Shown here: positions 40,025-49,805 of the stretch, piece by piece
Position numbering within the stretch: position 1 is the first letter of the stretch
Layout of the letters: every line of letters starts with the position of its first letter
NCBI RefSeq assembly: GCF_000203935.1
Contig: NC_008577.1
Coordinates: forward strand, 3,968,001 to 4,032,000
DNA: 64,000 nt
Reading direction: 5' to 3'
Source: Shewanella sp. ANA-3
Lineage (GTDB): Bacteria; Pseudomonadota; Gammaproteobacteria; Enterobacterales; Shewanellaceae
Notes under the pieces: model-generated
The model's database searches: none
The model's input: the letters and a program-made list of their open reading frames with translations, nothing else
Told to the model about the DNA's origin: nothing
Program-made: the position numbers and the translations under genes

Positions 40025-42259
40025 ATGCTGAAAAAGAACCCTAGCCTACACCCACTCGCGCCATTACTTTCATTGACCCAAGGGTTGCATTGGTCTCACC
40101 AACGCCTGTTGGCTGTCGCGAGCCAGTTATCTATGCTGGTGATAGGTATGATTATTTTAACCAACTTAATCATTACCTTAGGTGAACGCCGGTTACAGGA
40201 AGAATGGGCAACCCAAAGATACAGCGAATTACAAACCATAGGCACGCTGATCACGGATAAGGTCGCCTTCCAGCAGTTTCGCACTCAGCTATTTGCCAAA
40301 GACGAATTACTCAAGCAGTACCTCAAAAATCCAACGGCCTCGTCTCAGCAGAAATTGCAGGAAAGTTGGCAGGAGCTAGTGCAGCATATTCCTGAACTCC
40401 TCGGCATTGCCCTGTTCGATCCCCAAGGTAATTATAAGTTTGCGACACCTTCAAACTTTAGTCAGGACGCGCTGCCCGCCGCTCTGTTAGGTTCGAGCCG
40501 CAACTTAGGTGGTAAAGAAGTCTTTACCTCGCCCTTGGAGTTTGTGCCCCTCAATGGCATGCTCGAACCCTACATGTATCAAATGACTTGGCTCGAGAAA
40601 CCCGATCAAAGCTCGCTAGGTTACTTGATTACCTACAACTCGATTGTGCAGATGCTAGAAGCGATAAAACCTGCATTTTCAAGCAATAAGTCTCCGATGC
40701 TAGTGCTAGATACCCAAGGCTTGCTCTATGCGGGTGTGAGTGAACTCGCGCCCTTAACCCATATTCCCGATACCTTAGGCGCCAGTCTGCGCCAGAGTTA
40801 TCCGGCGCTATGGCGGGAAATGTCGATGAGCAACTTTGGCCAATTTCATGGTGAAGATGCCACCTTCGTGTACCTCAAAGTCGAGTTAACCAATCAGCCC
40901 GAACTGCGCCGCGAGTATTTTTTACTCTCTTATATCCGCAATGCCGATATCGCCTCCAAGTTTTCCCAGTGGCAAAACATCGTTATCGTCGCCGCGTTAA
41001 TCCTGACCTTACTCGCCGCTTGGGTGATCTTACTCAGCCATATGTATCGCCTGCAGTATCGCTCGCGCCAATACAGTATCGATGTGGCCAATGCACTATT
41101 TAACAATGATATCGGCTTTATCCTCGCCAATGAGCAGGCACGGATCATCAGTGCCAACCCTAAGGCGGCCGAGGCGACTCAAGTGCCACAGGATGAACTC
41201 ACAGATCGCAGCCTGCAGCGCGCGCTGAATCTCGACGACCTGACCCACGCGCAAATGCTCGACCAAGTGCATAGACAAGGTGAGTGGCAAGGCAAGCTGT
41301 CGCTAGACAATGATAAGGGCTCAAGACTTAGCGTGTGCGTACGCCAAGCGCCGAGATTGGGGCGCGGCTTACCGCATCTGTTAGTCTCCCTTGAAGATAT
41401 TAGCGCCATGATCGATTGCCAGAATCAAGCCTTCTTAAGCGACTTACTCTGCGATACGACTGTGGCCACAGCGCTGACTGATGCCAATGGTAAGCTGATA
41501 AAAATCAATCCAGTATTCGATCAACTGATGCAACTGAATGGCGATTTGAATCATGATTTAGCCTCACTGCTCGCCAACGATCTGGGTAACCAGTGGCAGC
41601 GGATCACCGCTCAGATCAGCATGCAAGGTCAATGGCAAGGGCAGATCCTCTGCTCGCCCAATCTGCGCCATTCGAATTGTTTACAGGCCACCTTAAAGGG
41701 GCATGTGGCCGCCGACGGTGAGATTGATTACATCATCTGTACCTTAGAGCAAGCCGCCGATAACCTGAGGGGCGCAGAGCCGCGCAGCTTTGTGCCGCAC
41801 CGCAGCACCATTTTGCAGCATCTCGCCGATTTAGAACGCTATTTTGCATCGCTTTCGCCCCAAAGCCGCAACCACTCAAGCCTGCTAGTGATGGATATCA
41901 ACCCCGAGGGTTTACTCAGCCATATGAGTGATATCGACCAACTCGAGACGCGTCAGCAGGAAGTGGAAGTGCAGCTCTTGCTCGAGATCCCTACCCACTA
42001 CCAAATCCTTCACTGGCAACTCGGTAAACTGTTGTTGTTACTGCCAGATACCGATGCCACGGCGGCACATCACTTTGCCCTCAATACCATAGAAAAGCTC
42101 AACAGCAATGGCTTAGGTGAAGGGATTAGCATTGGGATTGCCAGCTATCAGGAAGGACAAAGCCTAGAGCAATACCTCAGCAATGCCGAGGTGGCGCTCA
42201 AACGGGCGAAGCAGAATAACGATCAGAATATCGGCCAGGCCTTTACTCGTCAGCCTTAG
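40025..42259 (+). CDS. Membrane sensor with degenerate GGDEF domain
   Basis: 744 residues. One membrane helix near residue 40, an extracytoplasmic sensor of roughly 270 residues, a second helix (about 323-342), then PAS-like domains (about 360-480 and 490-590) and a C-terminal domain. The C-terminus has the final GGDEF landmarks (GISIGIASY and NAEVALKRAKQNN), but the catalytic GGDEF segment is replaced by WQLGKLLLLLP; with QLGKL in that position the metal- and substrate-binding residues are lost, so I expect no diguanylate cyclase activity. It may bind nucleotide or act as a structural signalling protein. It overlaps the convergent gene by 17 bases. Confidence 0.75.
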   Translation: MLKKNPSLHPLAPLLSLTQGLHWSHQRLLAVASQLSMLVIGMIILTNLIITLGERRLQEEWATQRYSELQTIGTLITDKVAFQQFRTQLFAKDELLKQYLKNPTASSQQKLQESWQELVQHIPELLGIALFDPQGNYKFATPSNFSQDALPAALLGSSRNLGGKEVFTSPLEFVPLNGMLEPYMYQMTWLEKPDQSSLGYLITYNSIVQMLEAIKPAFSSNKSPMLVLDTQGLLYAGVSELAPLTHIPDTLGASLRQSYPALWREMSMSNFGQFHGEDATFVYLKVELTNQPELRREYFLLSYIRNADIASKFSQWQNIVIVAALILTLLAAWVILLSHMYRLQYRSRQYSIDVANALFNNDIGFILANEQARIISANPKAAEATQVPQDELTDRSLQRALNLDDLTHAQMLDQVHRQGEWQGKLSLDNDKGSRLSVCVRQAPRLGRGLPHLLVSLEDISAMIDCQNQAFLSDLLCDTTVATALTDANGKLIKINPVFDQLMQLNGDLNHDLASLLANDLGNQWQRITAQISMQGQWQGQILCSPNLRHSNCLQATLKGHVAADGEIDYIICTLEQAADNLRGAEPRSFVPHRSTILQHLADLERYFASLSPQSRNHSSLLVMDINPEGLLSHMSDIDQLETRQQEVEVQLLLEIPTHYQILHWQLGKLLLLLPDTDATAAHHFALNTIEKLNSNGLGEGISIGIASYQEGQSLEQYLSNAEVALKRAKQNNDQNIGQAFTRQP

Positions 42260-43640
42260 CGGGCGGATTAAAGGAATCGGGTAGCTTACTTTGGGTGATC
42301 TCGATAATGGCCGAGCGGTTCATGGTGATTTTGTAGCGCGCGTATTCAGGCTCTTCTCGGCCGTCCCGCAGCACTAAAATCAGATTCACTTGGTAACGAC
42401 GCTCGACCGACTCGTGGCTGATCTTGCCCTCAAGTTCCTTATAAATCTTGGCCTTGCCCCGCTCTAAGTAGCGGGCAAAGGGTACAAAACTGAAGTTCAC
42501 TTGCTCTTGTATGGTTGAGTAGCCCGCCTGAAACTCGCCATGATTTACCCGAGTGGCAATCTTGTAATGCAGGACTTCGGCATCGACCTTATTCTGGCTA
42601 TGCCGTTGTTTTAGGATTTCGTTAACCTTCTCCGGCAAATCCTGCTGTCGCATAAATTCGAGCCAGACTAATTGCTTAGCGATCACCGACTGACTGGTGG
42701 TGTCCCTTAAGATACGGCTCCAACGCGGCCGACCACGCTGAATAAAGCGCCAAAGGGCATTACGCACATCATCCTTAAAGATTTCACGAAATCCGTAAAT
42801 AACCGCCAGCGTCAACACCAATGCTATGGTAAAGCCGCTAAAGACGCCCTGCGCTTCGATAATGAGTGCCGATACCACCAACATCACCAATGCGGTCGCA
42901 AGTCCTGTCGTAAACTTCTTAAGGCCAATGCCTAAGGGTTTTAACTCTTCTTTGAGTACCACACCTTGCTGAATTAAGCGCCGCAATAACAGCATCTTAT
43001 TCGAAATTCGGTTGGGGTCTTGCTTGGTCTGTGCCGAGTTATAGTTGTTGGCATCGCGATAAGCGCATTCGGTGCGGCACAGAGTCAAGACTCGTTCTTG
43101 AATGTCAGCAAAATCGCTGGTGCGGGTAGCATGGGCGAGTACTTTTAGCAGTTGCTGCTCGCAGAACCAGGACAGATAGTTATCGGCGTTCTCGAAATAG
43201 GATTTCCATTTAGGATCGCCCGGCTCATTACGGCGAAACTTTTTCAGCAGCTGCGTCACCTGCTCGCACAGCTCATCGAGCGCCAGATAGAAGTGCTCCA
43301 CATCGGCGATGCGATTGAGTTCTTTGACATCGTTTTCAACCGCGACGGCAAACTGGTAGGCAAACAGGTTTAAGTACAGCCGGAATTCTTCTACGGTGCG
43401 ACGATTCATACTGGCGAATCGCCCTTGCACCAGTGGCAAGTGCAGCCCTTCGGAGTAGTAGGAGCGGCGTCCGACAATCGCGCTGTGGTAATACTCTTCT
43501 TCGTTTAAAGTGTGCGCGCCTATGCCCATTTCCTTTGGTAAAAAGAAATAGAGATCGAGCTGACGATTATCGCCCTTTTCCATCTGATGGCTGAACTTAA
43601 TCGACAGGGATTCTTCTTGTTTGACACGTATCTTAAACAC
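42243..43640 (-). CDS. Large membrane-anchored protein of unknown function
   Basis: 465 residues with no family I can name. The N-terminal ~235 residues are soluble and charged, containing a cysteine pair in CRTECAYRD. Two helices close together (about 240-285, TTGLATALVMLVVSALII and IALVLTLAVIYGFREI) form a hairpin, and the rest is soluble and basic, with RGRPRWSRILRD. The stop overlaps the degenerate-GGDEF gene on the opposite strand by 17 bases. It is 85 bases upstream of, but not overlapping, a FidL-like gene on the same strand. No function is assigned. Confidence 0.65.
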   Translation of the reverse strand: MFKIRVKQEESLSIKFSHQMEKGDNRQLDLYFFLPKEMGIGAHTLNEEEYYHSAIVGRRSYYSEGLHLPLVQGRFASMNRRTVEEFRLYLNLFAYQFAVAVENDVKELNRIADVEHFYLALDELCEQVTQLLKKFRRNEPGDPKWKSYFENADNYLSWFCEQQLLKVLAHATRTSDFADIQERVLTLCRTECAYRDANNYNSAQTKQDPNRISNKMLLLRRLIQQGVVLKEELKPLGIGLKKFTTGLATALVMLVVSALIIEAQGVFSGFTIALVLTLAVIYGFREIFKDDVRNALWRFIQRGRPRWSRILRDTTSQSVIAKQLVWLEFMRQQDLPEKVNEILKQRHSQNKVDAEVLHYKIATRVNHGEFQAGYSTIQEQVNFSFVPFARYLERGKAKIYKELEGKISHESVERRYQVNLILVLRDGREEPEYARYKITMNRSAIIEITQSKLPDSFNPPAKADE

Positions 43641-43724: not shown

Positions 43725-44255
43725 TTAAATTCGGCTATTGACGATTCGACAGCCACAAACAGTGTTACTCGGCTGGAATAAGACAACGGCATAGTCTTGA
43801 TTCGTGTCGCTATCGAGCACCTCTATGCTGAGATTGTGTCTGCCAGATTCACTAAAGTGCAAGCTGCTGATGTAGGAAAGGTATTTCATATGTTCGGGCC
43901 AAGACTTTTTATCTATGTCTTCGGATTCCGTCTTGGTTTTAACTGAAACATTGTAGGTCATGCGGTTCAGCTCCATGCTCTTGACCTCGCCCTGCATCAG
44001 AATCGCACCCGCGCTTGAACCATCGAGGTTAAAGTAACGGTAATTGATTTGCGCATTGCCCGCCGAGATTAAGACATCGACCAATAAGTAGAATTTCCCC
44101 TCATCCACTTGCTGCGTATGGCGGTCGAAGAGTTCGGAACTGCAATTTAAGATCACCGCCTTATTGGAGACAGATTGCAGGTAAATCACCCCGCAGGCGA
44201 CGATTAGCGCCGAGAGTATAGTCAGATTTATTGTCCATTTAAGCCACTTAGCCAC
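43725..44255 (-). CDS. FidL-like membrane protein (copy 1)
   Basis: 176 residues: one N-terminal helix (about 10-28) and a periplasmic remainder. It resembles the FidL-like proteins that in Salmonella accompany the ToxR-type regulator MarT. Conserved cysteines are Cys in ILNCSSELFD after the helix and the pair in CGCRI at the end. It overlaps the regulator gene upstream by eight bases. A second pair with the same layout lies at 46861-48169. By analogy with ToxR/ToxS it may modulate the regulator's periplasmic domain; this is an inference. Confidence 0.6.
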   Translation of the reverse strand: MAKWLKWTINLTILSALIVACGVIYLQSVSNKAVILNCSSELFDRHTQQVDEGKFYLLVDVLISAGNAQINYRYFNLDGSSAGAILMQGEVKSMELNRMTYNVSVKTKTESEDIDKKSWPEHMKYLSYISSLHFSESGRHNLSIEVLDSDTNQDYAVVLFQPSNTVCGCRIVNSRI

Positions 44256-44991
44256 AGATCCCGACCTCCTGTAGCCAGTTCACATCGATAAATTCCTTCG
44301 GCCGCCTGAAGTCACTGATCTTCAAGTTGCGGATCACCGATTGCCCGAGTTTATAACCCCGCATAGTAATGTTGAGCACCTGTTTATCGTGGGAGAGTGA
44401 GGAATACACTTCGGACCAATCACTATGGCCGCAGCGACTCAACCCTTGGCCTAAGCGGTCGCCTAACTCAAACAATAGGGTATTGTTGGTTTTCGAGTTG
44501 GCATACAAATGCAGTCGAATATGTTGACCCGAGGCTAAGGGCAAATCGGTGGAGAGCAAAGGCTGAGTCGGTACGCTGTGGTCGATGCGGCTAAGGTAAA
44601 ATCCTGAAATCGCGAGCATAAATCCAAAAACCAGCAACACACTCCACCAAGGTAAGGATTGCAGCCTAGGATAACGCAAGCTTTTTAGCTTTTGCCCTTG
44701 GGTACAGTGCAGCAGATAGCCTTGCCCCTTGACGGTTTCAATCAGCCCCTCATATTGGGGTCCGAGGAAGGAGCGGATCATAAAGACCGCCCGCGCTAAC
44801 GAAGTGTCAGTCAGAGGAGGATGCGCCCCATCGCCAGTCTTCAGCTCATGCTTGGAGACCAGTTTGCCTTGATGTTCAACCAACAGGCTCAACACTTGCA
44901 ACTCGGCACGGGGAAGGTGCCAAGATTCATCACGAGCCTGTTCGACGAGTAAGCCACGCTCACGGTCAAACCAACAGCCCCCCACCTGCAT
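44248..44991 (-). CDS. ToxR/CadC-like membrane-bound winged-helix regulator (copy 1)
   Basis: 247 residues. A winged-helix DNA-binding domain of the Trans_Reg_C type (about 1-95, ending ETVKGQGYLLHC) sits in the cytoplasm; a membrane helix (about 115-136) leads to a ~110-residue periplasmic domain with cysteines in SRCGHSDW and the C-terminal VGICG. The arrangement is that of ToxR and CadC, which sense outside signals directly. It is divergent from the split-Soret cytochrome gene across 442 bases and is the likely regulator of it. Unlike MarT it lacks an identified target. Confidence 0.75.
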   Translation of the reverse strand: MQVGGCWFDRERGLLVEQARDESWHLPRAELQVLSLLVEHQGKLVSKHELKTGDGAHPPLTDTSLARAVFMIRSFLGPQYEGLIETVKGQGYLLHCTQGQKLKSLRYPRLQSLPWWSVLLVFGFMLAISGFYLSRIDHSVPTQPLLSTDLPLASGQHIRLHLYANSKTNNTLLFELGDRLGQGLSRCGHSDWSEVYSSLSHDKQVLNITMRGYKLGQSVIRNLKISDFRRPKEFIDVNWLQEVGICG

Positions 44992-45433
44992 AATTCAAAC
45001 TCCAACCTATAAAATCATCGAATTAAGTCTATGCAAGCCTGCTAATGATTACTGTGATCCCGTTAACCCAAGGGGCTAAATAATTAATTTTCGTGAGCTT
45101 CCCCCGCAGGCAAATAAGCATAGAACAAAAACCTGCTTCAGCTCACAGCGATAAATGGTATTTGCAGCCCCCTCGCTTGGTGATAAATCCGCGTAAATTT
45201 ACATAAATGCCACAAATAATGTGCGCTGCCGCAAATTGAAATCGAGCATTCCCACAAAATTACCTCGTAAGCATCGACTAAAACGATTGTTCTTCTCCCA
45301 CCGCCAGCGATTTTGGGAGGCGAAATATCCCCGGCCGCAAATCACACTATTTATTGCTGTAGTTTCTAGAATGATGCCATCAACCAATGGTTACTGATTG
45401 ATAAATAAAAGCAATTAATAAAAGAGGATATTC
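44992..45433. other. Divergent intergenic region between regulator copy 1 and the cytochrome gene
   Basis: 442 bases with no credible gene, holding both divergent promoters. I see a TAAATTTA palindrome near 45194 and no convincing CRP, FNR or ArcA site. Binding sites for the membrane regulators would be expected here. Confidence 0.5.
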
Positions 45434-46258
45434 ATGATGAGCATTAATCGACGCCAAGCATTAACTCGCATTATCGGTATCAGCACGGCGGCTGCGGGCG
45501 CAACTTTAATGGGTACGTCAGCATTTGCGGCAACCAATGCCGACGGTCAATATCAATTAGCCCTCGGGGAAAAACTCAAATATGTGCCACTCGATGCCAT
45601 GGCAACCGCAAAACTTGCCTACGAGACGGGTGGCGGCTGTATGCACCAAGTGTTTCACTCGGTTATCACTATGCTAGCGCAATCTAATAGTGCCGATGCC
45701 GACAAATTTAAAACCATTCCCACCGCCCTTGCGGGGTATGGTTTTGCTGGGGTCACAGGCCAAGGCACACTCTGTGGTAACCTCAACGCTATTGGTATGT
45801 TAGTCAACATCTTAGATGATATTAACGGCCAGAATAGCGCGGTTATCGCCAATACCTTCCGTTACTATGAAAACACCACCTTGCCACTATCGACCCCTGA
45901 GTTCGTTGCAGGTATCGGCTCGACAGCGGAAAAAACCGCCCTTGTAGGTAGCTCATCGAAAGCCATGAGTGTGCTGTGCCACTCCTCCATCAGTAACTGG
46001 TCACGGGCTTCTGGCCTGCCCTTCGCCAAGAAGGGTGAGCGCTGCTATCGCCTATCGGCCTCTATGGCCTATTACTTGGTGGAACTGCTAAACCGTGCCT
46101 ATCAGGGCGAGAATATTGGCGCCCTCCCCGGCACCAAACCCTCACTGGAAGCGCAGGATTGCCAAGTCTGCCACGGCAGCACCAGCACCTTAGGTTCGGC
46201 GGCAAGTGTTAAAACCGATATGGAATGCACCACGTGCCACACTGGCCACTTCAATTAA
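45434..46258 (+). CDS. Tat-exported split-Soret-type cytochrome c
   Basis: 274 residues. The N-terminus has a twin-arginine motif (INRRQALTRIIG), then a hydrophobic stretch ending near AFA, so it is folded in the cytoplasm before export, unusual for cytochromes c. There are only two CXXCH heme sites, CQVCH and CTTCH, both at the C-terminus, and a large N-terminal domain with cysteines in GGGCMHQVF, TLCGN, VLCHS and ERCYR. This matches split-Soret cytochrome c of Desulfovibrio. The role in Shewanella is not known to me. The 3' end overlaps an AAGGAGG site for the downstream lipoprotein gene, so the pair is an operon. Confidence 0.75.
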   Translation: MMSINRRQALTRIIGISTAAAGATLMGTSAFAATNADGQYQLALGEKLKYVPLDAMATAKLAYETGGGCMHQVFHSVITMLAQSNSADADKFKTIPTALAGYGFAGVTGQGTLCGNLNAIGMLVNILDDINGQNSAVIANTFRYYENTTLPLSTPEFVAGIGSTAEKTALVGSSSKAMSVLCHSSISNWSRASGLPFAKKGERCYRLSASMAYYLVELLNRAYQGENIGALPGTKPSLEAQDCQVCHGSTSTLGSAASVKTDMECTTCHTGHFN

Positions 46259-46268
46259 GGAGGCAGTG

Positions 46269-46793
46269 ATGAAATACCCATTACTCGCATTAACCCTAGG
46301 TACACTCATCCTTGTCGGCTGTGGTAGTGATGATGATAAATCCGAGGAGGTCACGCCTCCGCCGCCACCGCCGCCGGTCGAAACCACGGTGAGTATCGAT
46401 GAGGCCACTCAGATTAATCTGGCGGTAGAACAGTTTGACTCTAACACCGGCAGCTTAGTGTTCTCATTAACCGATGCTAACCAAGCGGCGATTACCGCCG
46501 CCAAGAGCTATGATATTTATTACTTTGGTTTCCCTAATAAAGATAAAGTCTCGGCCAATCCTAAGGCTTGGAAACGCTGGCATGTGACCCAAAGTTATCG
46601 CTGCCAGAGCCAAGGAGAATGTACGGGTCAACTGACCGAAGTGAAGAATGGCCAATATCAGTTCGAAATCGCGGGTCTCGATTGGCAACAACAGGACCCC
46701 AGCGGCGCCGTGTCCCAAATCAAGGTTGCGATTCAGATCTATGGTGCTAAGGCCAACAATGAACTGGCATTAGTTCAAGTGACACCTCAGTAG
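46269..46793 (+). CDS. Heme-free lipoprotein resembling domain I of OmcA/MtrC cytochromes
   Basis: 174 residues from the ATG at 46269, which follows AAGGAGG by six bases; a longer frame from 46206 overlaps the cytochrome and has no such site. A lipobox (ILVGCGS) precedes an acidic linker and a run of seven prolines. The rest is beta-rich, with WKRWHVTQSYRCQSQGECTG and VKNGQYQFEI, which recall the N-terminal domain of MtrC/OmcA-type decaheme proteins (a short cysteine pair followed by NGhYsY). There is no CXXCH, so it carries no heme. It may anchor or present the cytochrome at the outer membrane. The similarity is recalled, not aligned. Confidence 0.55.
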   Translation: MKYPLLALTLGTLILVGCGSDDDKSEEVTPPPPPPPVETTVSIDEATQINLAVEQFDSNTGSLVFSLTDANQAAITAAKSYDIYYFGFPNKDKVSANPKAWKRWHVTQSYRCQSQGECTGQLTEVKNGQYQFEIAGLDWQQQDPSGAVSQIKVAIQIYGAKANNELALVQVTPQ

Positions 46794-46822
46794 CGACACA
46801 GTCCCCCCCTTCATCGTGCCCA

Positions 46823-46850
46823 AAAAAGGCATCCTGTGGGATGCCTTTTT
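46823..46850. terminator. Bidirectional terminator between the cytochrome operon and regulator copy 2
   Basis: 12-base stem AAAAAGGCATCC/GGATGCCTTTTT with a 4-base loop and A and T tracts. Confidence 0.9.
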
Positions 46851-46860
46851 ATTGCTGACA

Positions 46861-47409
46861 TTAATGACTCCTACAAGCCCACAAATGCCCGCTGGGATAG
46901 AACTTAATCAACACGAAATCATTTAAGGTATCCATGTCCACAATCTGCATATCGAAACTCATTCTGCCCTGCTCGAATAAGGCTTGGCGGGATTTTCGCA
47001 CCTCGGCACGCATTAAGTCGGGCACTTCGGTTTGCAGTAGGTCCATTTTTAAATTGGCTTGGTCTAAATTCAGCTTATAAGTCATAGTGCCAGGCTCTAA
47101 GGCACTGACTTTGCCGCGGTAAATCAGCGCAGCCAAGTCTTGCCCATCCTGCGCATAGCGATAACTTAACTTAGCGTGATTAGCCTCTATCGCCACATCG
47201 AGGGCTAAACTTTGGCTAAAGGCAGGCAGAGATTCGGCCATAAAAGGCGATTGGTACAGCTTAGCCAGGCAACTCAAGTTGAGTTGCTTACTGTTAAAGC
47301 TCATGGCGTAAGTGCCCAGCACGATACTGGATAAAATGACAATTATTCCAACTACATGCCATAAACGAAACCTATGGGTTTTCGCCGTTAAATCAGAAAA
47401 TTTAAGCAC
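46861..47409 (-). CDS. FidL-like membrane protein (copy 2)
   Basis: 182 residues with the layout of copy 1: a positive N-terminus, one helix (about 19-37) and a periplasmic domain that begins LNLSCLAKLYQ and ends in WACRSH. The cysteine shortly after the helix and the one next to Arg at the end match copy 1 in position. The mid-protein segments (LIYRGKVSALEPGTMTYKLN and ILMQGEVKSMELNRMTYNVS in copy 1) show the two are paralogues. It overlaps regulator copy 2 by eight bases, as copy 1 does. Confidence 0.6.
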   Translation of the reverse strand: MLKFSDLTAKTHRFRLWHVVGIIVILSSIVLGTYAMSFNSKQLNLSCLAKLYQSPFMAESLPAFSQSLALDVAIEANHAKLSYRYAQDGQDLAALIYRGKVSALEPGTMTYKLNLDQANLKMDLLQTEVPDLMRAEVRKSRQALFEQGRMSFDMQIVDMDTLNDFVLIKFYPSGHLWACRSH

Positions 47410-48151
47410 AGATCCCCACCATTTTTAGCCATAACTCATCAATCACATCGGCATTAAAATCCTCGGACATCATCTTGATGGTCTCGAATCTCAGCCCATC
47501 GGCATCTTCATTTTTTAGCACTAGACTCACAAACTTTTGGTCCGTTGAGATTGTGGCGGCGATGGATTGCCAAGGGAAAATGGCACAAGCCGAAACCTGC
47601 GCCAGAAAGTGGTCGACTAATGGCTTCATCGAATGGTCCATCGGCTGTCCCGTATAAAATTGGATCTCTGACAAATCACCATTATGCATAGGTAATTGCG
47701 TCGCATAATTGGGCGTGATGCTTGTAGGGTGGGAGATCCGAGAGCCAACCCAAAACAGGGTTGCCAAGGTCAAGAGCATCAGCAACATAAACTGTGGCAT
47801 ACCTAGTTTAAAAAGCGGCGAATTAAGCTCGGTACGGGATTGTTTTCTAGGAGTGGCGTAAAGGATAAAACCTTGATTAGCTACATTGACCAATAGATGC
47901 GCCGCATCGTCACCGAGAAATAACCTTAAGCGTCGAATGGTGCTATTGAGCAAGTCATCGGCACGCATAGGCAATTTGAGTTGCGGCCGAATCGCCTGCT
48001 GTAACTCCATGCGCGAAACGACTTTGCCGCGCTGTGCACTCAGCAGAGAAAGTATTTGAAATTCATCCGCACTCAATAACCAGCTGCGTCCTGAAGCCGA
48101 ATCAACCAGCACTTGTTCCTGTGCATTAAACCAACAAGCGCCTATTTGCAT
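47402..48151 (-). CDS. ToxR/CadC-like membrane-bound winged-helix regulator (copy 2)
   Basis: 249 residues from the ATG at 48151, chosen because it aligns with the start of copy 1 (MQIGACWF and MQVGGCWF) and has AGAGG upstream; an ATG at 48169 would add six residues. Winged helix (about 1-100), one membrane helix (about 123-142), periplasmic domain with cysteines in SACAIFPW and VGICA, equivalent to copy 1. With copy 1 it flanks the split-Soret cytochrome operon. Target and signal are unknown; the conserved cysteine pairs hint at redox sensing. Confidence 0.75.
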   Translation of the reverse strand: MQIGACWFNAQEQVLVDSASGRSWLLSADEFQILSLLSAQRGKVVSRMELQQAIRPQLKLPMRADDLLNSTIRRLRLFLGDDAAHLLVNVANQGFILYATPRKQSRTELNSPLFKLGMPQFMLLMLLTLATLFWVGSRISHPTSITPNYATQLPMHNGDLSEIQFYTGQPMDHSMKPLVDHFLAQVSACAIFPWQSIAATISTDQKFVSLVLKNEDADGLRFETIKMMSEDFNADVIDELWLKMVGICA

Positions 48152-48317
48152 CTCGGCCTCTTTCATCATCTTACTTGAGGCCGAGTATACAATTCGAGCT
48201 AAAACAACGCAGTGATCTTAATACCACCTAACATGGTCAGATGAATAATCTGTGAAACACATCAATAAAACATTTAATGCTAAAAACAAACAACGATACA
48301 TTGTGTTTCATTTGTTT

Positions 48318-49805
48318 TTAGAACATTGCCGCATTGAGCCACATATGTACCAAAATGCTAGCAATATAGCCAAGCGCGATCACAGGCGTCCAACGTAAAT
48401 GGGCGCCGAAGGTGTAAATCCCCCTCGCCTGTCCCATCAAGGCAACCCCTGCCGCACTGCCGATGGATAACAAACTGCCCCCAACGCCCGCGGTTAAGGT
48501 CACCAGTAACCATTGACCGAGGGCCATCTCTGGGTTCATGGTCAACACGGCGAACATCACTGGAATGTTATCGACAATGGAAGACAACAGACCGATAGCC
48601 ACGTTGGCATAGGTTGCATCCCAATGGGAATACAGTGCCTCAGACACTAAGCTTAAATACCCCATAAAGCCAAGGCCGCCCACACATAACACCACACCGT
48701 AGAAGAACAGTAAGGTATCCCATTCGGCGCGGGAAATCCGGCTAAACACATCGAAGGGCACCACGCTGCCAAGTTGTTGTAGCCGTTGTTTATCCTGACG
48801 TAATTCCGCCTTCGCACGCTCACGAGCAACGGATTTATCGAAGGTCTTACGCAGGTAATAACCGAAGAACTGCAGGAAGCCCAGACCCGTCATCATCCCA
48901 AGCACAGGTGGCATGCCGAAGAAGGAATGAGCACACACCGCCGTCGCAATGGTCAGCAGGAATAACGCCACGATACGTTTAGCACCGGGTTTAGTGTACA
49001 CCTGCTCTTTTTCAGGCTCTGGCACATAACGTGGGATAAACACGCTCATAATCGCCGCAGGCAAGGCAAAGTTGACCAAGGCGGGAATAAACAGATGGAA
49101 GAAGTCAGCAAAGTGCACTAAGCCCTTTTGCCACACCATCAGGGTGGTGATATCACCAAAGGGACTAAAGGCACCGCCCGCATTCGCCGCAACCACAATG
49201 TTGATACACGCCAGCGTAATAAATTTGCGCTGCCCCGCGCCGACCTTCATCACCACGGCACACATCAATAATGCAGTGGTTAAGTTATCGGCCACTGGCG
49301 AGATAAAGAACGCCATAAACCCCGTCAGCCAGAACACGGTTCGCAGACTAAATCCCCGTCCGACTAGCCAACCGCGGATCGCATCGAATAAGTTACGTTC
49401 CTCCATGGCGTTGATATAAGTCATCGCCACTAATAGGAAGAGTAATAACTCGGCGTATTCCAGTAGATTGTGCTTAAAGGCTGCCTCGGAAACCTCCGAC
49501 ATGCCATTTTGCACATACACAAAACCTATCATGCCCCAAATAATGCCGGCTGCGACCAATACGGGTTTGGATTTACGCAGGTGCAGCGCCTCTTCGGCCA
49601 TCACCAAAATATAGGCGAGCACGAAGACGCATACGGCAATATACCCCACTGATGCAGCGGTTAAATCGAGCCGTTCTGTTCCTTCGGTCATTGCCCAAAC
49701 TGCTGGTGAGAATCCGCTCAATATTGCAACGCAGAATAGGCTAGCGAGCACCACTCCACTGTTTTTAAACCACCGCTGTAATTTCATCAAAGTTGATCTC
49801 TGCAA
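48318..49805 (-). CDS. nhaD: NhaD-type Na+/H+ antiporter
   Basis: 495 residues with about twelve membrane helices and an N-terminal segment that may be cleaved or be a helix. Landmarks of the NhaD group of the ion-transporter superfamily are visible: FFISPVADNLTTALLM, ANAGGAFSPFGDITTLMVW and SSIVDNIPVMFAVL with buried Asp residues. It exports Na+ (or Li+) in exchange for protons in alkaline or saline conditions, in keeping with a marine or brackish relative. An ATG six codons later may be the true start. Monocistronic. Confidence 0.9.
   Translation of the reverse strand: MQRSTLMKLQRWFKNSGVVLASLFCVAILSGFSPAVWAMTEGTERLDLTAASVGYIAVCVFVLAYILVMAEEALHLRKSKPVLVAAGIIWGMIGFVYVQNGMSEVSEAAFKHNLLEYAELLLFLLVAMTYINAMEERNLFDAIRGWLVGRGFSLRTVFWLTGFMAFFISPVADNLTTALLMCAVVMKVGAGQRKFITLACINIVVAANAGGAFSPFGDITTLMVWQKGLVHFADFFHLFIPALVNFALPAAIMSVFIPRYVPEPEKEQVYTKPGAKRIVALFLLTIATAVCAHSFFGMPPVLGMMTGLGFLQFFGYYLRKTFDKSVARERAKAELRQDKQRLQQLGSVVPFDVFSRISRAEWDTLLFFYGVVLCVGGLGFMGYLSLVSEALYSHWDATYANVAIGLLSSIVDNIPVMFAVLTMNPEMALGQWLLVTLTAGVGGSLLSIGSAAGVALMGQARGIYTFGAHLRWTPVIALGYIASILVHMWLNAAMF

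Follow-up and report, generated by a model that had tools for sequence, protein, structure and literature searches.

A ToxR-like receptor pair forms a four-gene unit with a split-Soret cytochrome and a lipoprotein in Shewanella, with a diverged second pair

Gut pathogens sense bile by two-protein membrane receptors known as co-component systems, and in Vibrio cholerae two of their regulators, ToxR and TcpP, act together at toxT. Here we describe two receptor pairs of this kind at positions 43725–48151 of a 64,000-nt stretch of the Shewanella sp. ANA-3 genome (NC_008577.1, positions 3,968,001 to 4,032,000 of the forward strand), hereafter the window, where they bracket the genes for a split-Soret cytochrome (SSC) and a small lipoprotein (LIPO). 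Coordinates are positions within the window; loci are labelled L and genomes G.

Excerpts of the class description by Kinch et al. 2022 (PMC9214523) name VtrA/VtrC, ToxR/ToxS, TcpP/TcpH, MarT/FidL, GrvA/FidL and YqeI/YqeJ as co-component systems, describe these receptors as virulence switches of enteric bacteria and give as a class hallmark a C-terminal Cys codon of the regulator that is overlapped by the partner start. The same excerpts give a beta2-alpha-beta3-alpha arrangement for the periplasmic domain of VtrA and ToxR, place cysteines on the first and last strands of FidL-type partners and mention neighbouring pairs in Salmonella (STM0341/0342 and STM0344/0345). The split-Soret cytochrome of Desulfovibrio was reported with a novel iron centre, according to a reference title in PMC5701242. 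In excerpts of PMC3623810, SO0939 of S. oneidensis MR-1 is listed as a split-soret diheme cytochrome c among 24 putative substrates of twin-arginine translocation (Tat); an in-frame mutant was made, and single losses are discussed as having undetectable or modest growth effects. In the open-access literature, which leaves most subscription papers outside, we found no study that connects co-component regulators with split-Soret cytochromes or with Shewanella, and no function assigned to the cytochrome.

The unit at this locus consists of four genes, with partner 1 and regulator 1 divergent from SSC and LIPO. A cytochrome match was present in 106 of 129 Shewanella genomes, and the matches fell into two paralogues, SSC1 (100 loci in 99 genomes) and SSC2 (14 loci). 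The divergent regulator, the partner and the lipoprotein are all present at 99 of the 100 SSC1 loci, the lone exception being cut by a contig end. Pairs of the window's pair 1 kind (type 1) occur in 99/99 SSC1 genomes (split in G067) and are intact in 2 of the 30 genomes without SSC1 (Fisher 2.5e-26; all Fisher values and genome counts are uncorrected for kinship). One of these 30 genomes, G112, is 52% complete. At 50 loci the gene HYP465, which neighbours pair 1 in the window, does not lie beside pair 1, and there the block of partner 1, regulator 1, SSC and LIPO is intact (at L157 with the regulator split over two frames). Shared flank genes place these 50 loci in 11 neighbourhood groups, with L193 and L194 inverted near HYP465. 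The same four-gene block was found in G157, a genome of another genus of the family, where SSC is 39–42% identical and neither pair 2 nor HYP465 lies within the 16.8 kb covered. A survey of 295 genomes of the order found SSC in 18 of them, from two of 99 genera, and the partner family in exactly the same 18.

By predicted fold and alignment, both pairs are co-component systems of the ToxR/ToxS, VtrA/VtrC and MarT/FidL kind, partner 2 being placed by alignment. The two window regulators matched the Pfam family Trans_reg_C at 5.7e-8 and 7.7e-9 and were within the three weakest of its 24 matches in the genome. The predicted model of regulator 1 (pLDDT, the predicted local confidence score, 89.8; pTM, the predicted template-modelling score, 0.49) has a helix at 115–135 and periplasmic elements in the beta2-alpha-beta3-alpha order of VtrA and ToxR, the fold-match list itself being filled by the winged helix, for which ToxR ranked first (8b4c, Z 13.6), within 1 of OmpR. 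Regulator 2 has a winged helix by Pfam match and the same architecture by alignment. The partner 1 model (pLDDT 86.5) comprises a membrane helix and eight strands; in VIA-align, VtrC was at the top (5kev, Z 12.2, root-mean-square deviation 2.7, 122 aligned; 5kew, 11.6; 8dml, 11.2), followed by ToxS (8alo, Z 9.4; 8u2f, 9.1) and then by unrelated proteins at 7.8 or less. A partner profile gave no consistent match among PDB sequences or Pfam. Weak matches of 62 partners pointed to 16 Pfam families, none of them named FidL, although no direct comparison with FidL was made.

The sequence-only reading had attributed to the two pairs a common architecture, 8-base gene overlaps and equivalent periplasmic cysteines, and all of these hold. 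The overlap is 8 bases in both pairs of the window, and a start codon permitting it was found in 74 of 100 type-1 and 66 of 82 type-2 pairs (type 2 being the kind of pair 2). The cysteines shared by the pairs are not due to chance: C187 and C246 are invariant in regulator alignment A1 (54 of 68 available regulators), as are C38 and C169 in partner alignment A2 (62 of 70 partners), both alignments including both types. In a wider set of 188 full-length regulator matches, the two columns held Cys in 185 and 186. Cys38 and Cys169 lie within strands 34–43 and 165–174 of the partner 1 model, which points to a disulfide between the first and last strands of the barrel, as in the FidL-type subgroup. 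Strong conservation of the type-1 regulators was seen in the recognition region and the periplasmic core (100 sequences). A further, cytoplasmic cysteine, at codon 6 of regulator 1 (44974–44976) in the motif MQ(I/L)GxC, is present in at least 90% of the 54 regulators.

Table 1. Features of the locus, with positions in the window, and the half-regulator loci
Feature	Position	Strand	Description
HYP465, conserved 465-aa membrane protein	42243..43640	(-)	Neighbour of pair 1
Partner 1	43725..44255	(-)	One membrane helix and predicted 8-stranded lipocalin-like barrel of VtrC/ToxS fold; Cys38 on first strand, Cys169 on last strand
Partner 1/regulator 1 overlap, 8 bases	44248..44255	(-)	Partner GTG start over regulator C-terminal Cys codon
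Regulator 1 (type 1)	44248..44991	(-)	Winged helix, one membrane helix, predicted periplasmic beta2-alpha-beta3-alpha domain with Cys187 and Cys246
Footprint F1	45044..45072	(+)	Conserved; contains CTGTGATC at 45052-45059; upstream of regulator 1
Footprint F2	45195..45218	(+)	AAATTTACATAAATGCCACAAATA; AAAT repeats in 9-10 base steps; candidate operator
Footprint F3	45338..45354	(+)	CAAATCACACTATTTAT; conserved; upstream of cytochrome gene
SSC1, split-Soret cytochrome	45434..46258	(+)	Twin-Arg signal, two CxxCH, conserved non-heme Cys 69, 114, 182, 204
LIPO, small lipoprotein	46269..46793	(+)	Lipobox Cys18; conserved Cys112, Cys118
Partner 2 (type 2)	46861..47409	(-)	Architecture and cysteines as partner 1, by alignment
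Regulator 2 (type 2)	47402..48151	(-)	Faster-evolving paralogue; mechanical open reading frame start at 48169
NhaD-like antiporter gene	48318..49805	(-)	Pfam CitMHS
Winged-helix-half loci (eleven)	L133, L136, L137, L144, L148-L150, L153, L162, L166, L174		
Type-1 sensor halves with partner gene	L193:8673-9164, L194:5660-6130, L255:5953-6495, L256:5995-6537, L257:5884-6426		

The gene order is given in Table 1. A Tat-signal two-heme cytochrome and a lipoprotein do lie between the pairs, as had been read from the sequence; its wording as an operon needs one correction, since the six genes are not a single operon: a 442-bp region separates pair 1 from the divergently transcribed SSC–LIPO, and pair 2 runs convergently towards the lipoprotein gene. 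The 442-bp region (44992–45433) contains blocks conserved within the window's clade. Of 99 intergenic regions, 80 have TGTGATC no more than 130 nt from the regulator-1 start (mean 1.15 and maximum 2 in shuffles, which permuted two-base blocks), and 74 have ATCACA no more than 160 nt from the cytochrome start (9.65 on average in shuffles, at most 15). Of the 82 more distant intergenic regions, 43 hold F2 with up to three mismatches, versus 1 of 246 shuffles. Upstream of regulator 2, TGTGATC was found in 26 of 82 regions, and another 8-mer, GAGTATAC, recurs in 24 of 82; no motif common to both regulator types was detected beyond TGTGATC.

By sequence comparison, the window cytochrome is a split-Soret homologue but not a member of the NCBIfam Desulfovibrio equivalog: it matched the NCBIfam split-Soret model with an E-value of 1.1e-29 and 103.8 bits, not reaching the cut-off of 400, and matched PDB entry 1h21 with an E-value of 4.1e-17 (phmmer, 65.9 bits). 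The NCBIfam model gave four matches in 299 genomes of the phylum, all below the cut-off. The four non-heme cysteines align with those of 1h21 and are each kept in 112 or 113 of 113 Shewanella sequences, and a twin-Arg motif lies near the start of 110 of the 113; a Tat signal would make sense if a cofactor were assembled prior to export. The SSC2 paralogues (L216–L229) carry three CxxCH motifs in 14/14 sequences, at 36–40% identity by blastp. In LIPO, Cys112 and Cys118 are invariant in alignment A3 (23 of 50 lipoproteins) and present in 68 and 71 of 71 members of a wider set. LIPO accompanies both SSC paralogues. The idea that LIPO is a free N-terminal domain of MtrC/MtrF was not upheld; PF22111 matched 2 of the 23 A3 members, at 0.0012 and below the cut-off, and a LIPO profile search of the PDB returned no MtrC/MtrF-type chain.

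Phylogenetic analysis separated the two pair types, as expected of the paralogues proposed by the sequence-only reading. In the IQ-TREE analysis of 95 regulators (183 rows dereplicated at 78% identity; five rows labelled 'none' were left out, among them the type-1 regulator of L199, whose contig is broken), one branch (100/99) separates the 41 SSC-divergent regulators and that of G038 from the other 53, which occupy the pair-2 position or adjoin HYP465 or the antiporter gene, which we take to be nhaD, without SSC. In a quick tree of regulator plus partner (94 pairs and G157), type 2 forms one group (approximate likelihood ratio test SH-aLRT, 100) and G157 falls on the type-1 side with eight deep type-1 pairs (96); with G157 as the sole outgroup genome, this suggests that type 2 derived from the SSC-linked type. 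Among the 72 genomes with both types, mean pairwise identity was 38.5% for type 2 versus 54.6% for type 1 in the DNA-binding part, and 26.0% versus 47.1% in the periplasmic part. On these trees and identities, pair 2 is a separate, monophyletic and faster-evolving paralogue.

Pair 2 has often been lost or relocated. Among the 100 SSC1 loci, pair 2 next to SSC–LIPO is intact in 31, truncated in 11, inverted in 2 and absent in 56, where absent means that the roughly 5 kb downstream hold no type-2 gene (for 3 of the 56, less than 4 kb of downstream sequence was available). All type-2 numbers are minimum values: at least 83 full-length type-2 regulators were found, of which 31 lie beside the cytochrome block and at least 50 adjoin HYP465 without the cytochrome. 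Pair 2 does not accompany the cytochrome block to its other sites, and seven loci of the window's own clade (L122, L126–L131) have no pair 2 between the lipoprotein gene and nhaD. Type 2 is intact in at least 74 of 99 SSC1 genomes versus at least 9 of 30 genomes without SSC1 (Fisher 1.8e-5); in G105, one of these nine, the cytochrome gene is broken and lies at a contig end. This excess speaks against full independence of pair 2, which may have a role in trans on the cytochrome.

HYP465 has no Pfam match and occurs in 98 of the 295 genomes of the order, in 14 genera; four Shewanella among these genomes carry HYP465 but lack the partner family. At 106 of 109 loci, all picked for holding SSC or a regulator, the gene immediately upstream of HYP465, on its strand, encodes a partner (the gap has a median of 85 bp), and the pair type adjoining HYP465 varies between loci, being pair 1 in the window. 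At L231 and L232 (genomes G012 and G038), pair 1 sits between HYP465 and nhaD, and the cytochrome, the lipoprotein and pair 2 are missing. HYP465 as an obligate third partner was rejected, its distribution being far wider than that of the pairs. The SSC block is beside HYP465 at 49 of 107 HYP465 loci, inverted nearby at 2 and not there at 56, and a quick HYP465 tree, in which several deep forks are unresolved, requires a minimum of nine changes for block presence. Every large group of this tree includes loci with the bracket and an intact pair 2, so the bracketed order is probably ancestral, with the four-gene block repeatedly departing. Insertion of the block into an ancestral HYP465–pair 2 site costs about the same number of changes as repeated loss; it was rejected as disfavoured by the presence of the bracket in each large group and by the halves at L255–L257 described below. 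No SSC or lipoprotein remnants were found between the pair and HYP465 at loci without the block. At L230, fragments of SSC and the lipoprotein gene adjoin pair 2, but the contig ends there and nhaD is broken too.

Half regulators were found at several loci (Table 1). At eleven of them the pair-2 position holds a type-2 winged helix and membrane helix with no sensor domain and no intact partner. L193 and L194 carry a type-1 membrane-plus-sensor half with its partner, adjoining HYP465, and at L255–L257 a type-2 winged-helix half adjoins a type-1 sensor half, as if the intervening block had been deleted. Of the five genomes with type-1 halves, G053 and G011 also have a full pair 1; G025, G030 and G127 do not, and there the complementary type-2 DNA-binding half is the neighbouring gene. 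The median ratio of nonsynonymous to synonymous substitution (dN/dS) was 0.07 (14 of 28 pairs usable; pN/pS, the ratio of the uncorrected proportions, 0.35 over all pairs) and 0.09 (3/3) for two sets of winged-helix halves, 0.03 (one pair) and 0.08 (3/3) for the sensor halves, and, with 1 of 3 pairs usable, 0.15 for the L255–L257 winged-helix halves; full regulator 1 of the first eight genomes gave 0.08 (11 of 28 usable; pN/pS 0.29). Given these low values, from small samples, the halves look functional and are apparently under purifying selection. A mixed, separable receptor, with sensing by the type-1 regulator–partner halves and DNA binding by the type-2 halves, is conceivable but improbable; such a co-component system would be divided among three membrane proteins and would signal by their assembly, with no phosphotransfer.

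We consider it probable that the regulator 1–partner 1 receptor controls SSC and the lipoprotein and that pair 2 is an old, diverged duplicate. Regulator 1 and partner 1 would form a co-component receptor in the inner membrane, in which the partner barrel and the periplasmic domain of the regulator would associate as a heterodimer, each protein being held by its own disulfide. A periplasmic signal, most likely a small hydrophobic ligand in the barrel and possibly modulated by pH or thiols, would alter DNA binding by the winged helix. The latter would act on the shared divergent region, most likely as an activator that may bind the footprints, and control its own pair together with the Tat-exported cytochrome and its lipoprotein. 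Pair 2 would have stayed beside the locus in some lineages while its DNA-binding and sensing surfaces diverged, and the cytochrome is probably not its sole main target any more. Several observations weigh against pair 1 as the dedicated controller: G012 and G038 have pair 1 without SSC; a regulator or partner was found in none of the 14 fetched SSC2 stretches, although 13 of them hold the lipoprotein; the footprint counts are inflated by kinship; and GATCACA lies within 400 bases upstream of 11 of the 14 SSC2 genes, in nine cases between −127 and −143 (shuffles averaged 0.31, with a maximum of 2). Since these SSC2 genes carry the element without a pair, it may belong to another protein such as CRP. 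The footprints would then be CRP sites, and pair 1 would act elsewhere or only on itself. TGTGATC/GATCACA equals the CRP half site; full CRP palindromes were nevertheless rejected, as a second half at the expected spacing did not stand out above other spacings, and F2 does not resemble the CRP consensus. This explanation would also leave the near-perfect linkage of pair 1 to SSC1 unaccounted for. We regard it as unlikely.

The sequence-only reading took both pairs as one duplicated redox-responsive module dedicated to one extracytoplasmic electron-transfer protein; pair 2 would then act with pair 1 on the same promoter, an arrangement comparable to ToxR and TcpP in Vibrio cholerae. As to dedication, the linkage counts bear this out for pair 1 and not for pair 2, intact beside the cytochrome at fewer than a third of the SSC1 loci. 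The check by co-occurrence that this reading proposed likewise favours pair 1, and its check of the cysteines favours both pairs. A duplication did take place, and the pairs are paralogues; double control of the cytochrome is the part that we find distinctly doubtful. In its favour are the loci where pair 2 stands beside the cytochrome in intact, truncated or inverted form, the probably ancestral bracket, the invariant cysteines of both types, the TGTGATC shared by some regulator-2 upstream regions and, as its best remaining support, the greater frequency of type 2 in genomes with SSC1. These are countered by the 56 SSC1 loci without a nearby type-2 gene (including those of the window's clade), by relocated cytochrome blocks that pair 2 does not accompany, by its retention in genomes lacking SSC1 and by the diverged type-2 recognition region. 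That pair 2 instead controls another target, namely the HYP465 gene, nhaD or a distant regulon, is a real possibility, if somewhat short of an even chance. The partner gene directly upstream of HYP465, the many type-2 regulators adjoining HYP465 without SSC and the distinct GAGTATAC element fit this proposal, whereas the selection of the HYP465 loci, the wide occurrence of HYP465 compared with the 18 genomes holding the partner family, and the changing pair type beside it do not. As for the signal, a redox response could be argued from the cysteines, which are themselves described hallmarks of the class. It seems rather more plausible that the cysteine pairs are purely structural and that the receptor senses a ligand and not a redox state, given their invariance in both types and the same disulfides described for virulence co-components in excerpts of PMC9214523; that source, however, also reports that ToxR activity needs oxidized disulfides.

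The pairs belong to a class already described but occur here in new surroundings, and what is surprising is how strictly the four genes keep together, how old and unstable the second pair is, and that halves of the regulators are conserved. In a genus that is largely environmental, most of the species sampled have a co-component receptor locked to a conserved redox protein. They provide a genetically tractable system for asking what co-component receptors sense, a promoter with conserved candidate operators and a natural dissection into sensing and DNA-binding halves.

The Shewanella pairs resemble described co-component systems in the winged helix, the single membrane helix, the predicted order of elements in the periplasmic domain, the C-terminal Cys, the overlapping partner gene, the predicted lipocalin-like fold of the partner, the FidL-type cysteine positions and the occurrence of neighbouring pairs. 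They differ in that the Shewanella pair is linked to a cytochrome and a lipoprotein and not to virulence genes, in that the partner lacks a consistent Pfam match, and in that a four-gene unit extends across the genus and into a second genus, with separated regulator halves in some species. The cytochrome shares two CxxCH motifs and four aligned non-heme cysteines with Desulfovibrio split-Soret cytochrome c (1h21), but is distant from it, and the Shewanella SSC has a lipoprotein and, in the case of SSC1, also a receptor pair. As with ToxR and TcpP at toxT, two membrane winged-helix co-component pairs occur in one cell; in Shewanella their joint action is only a possibility.

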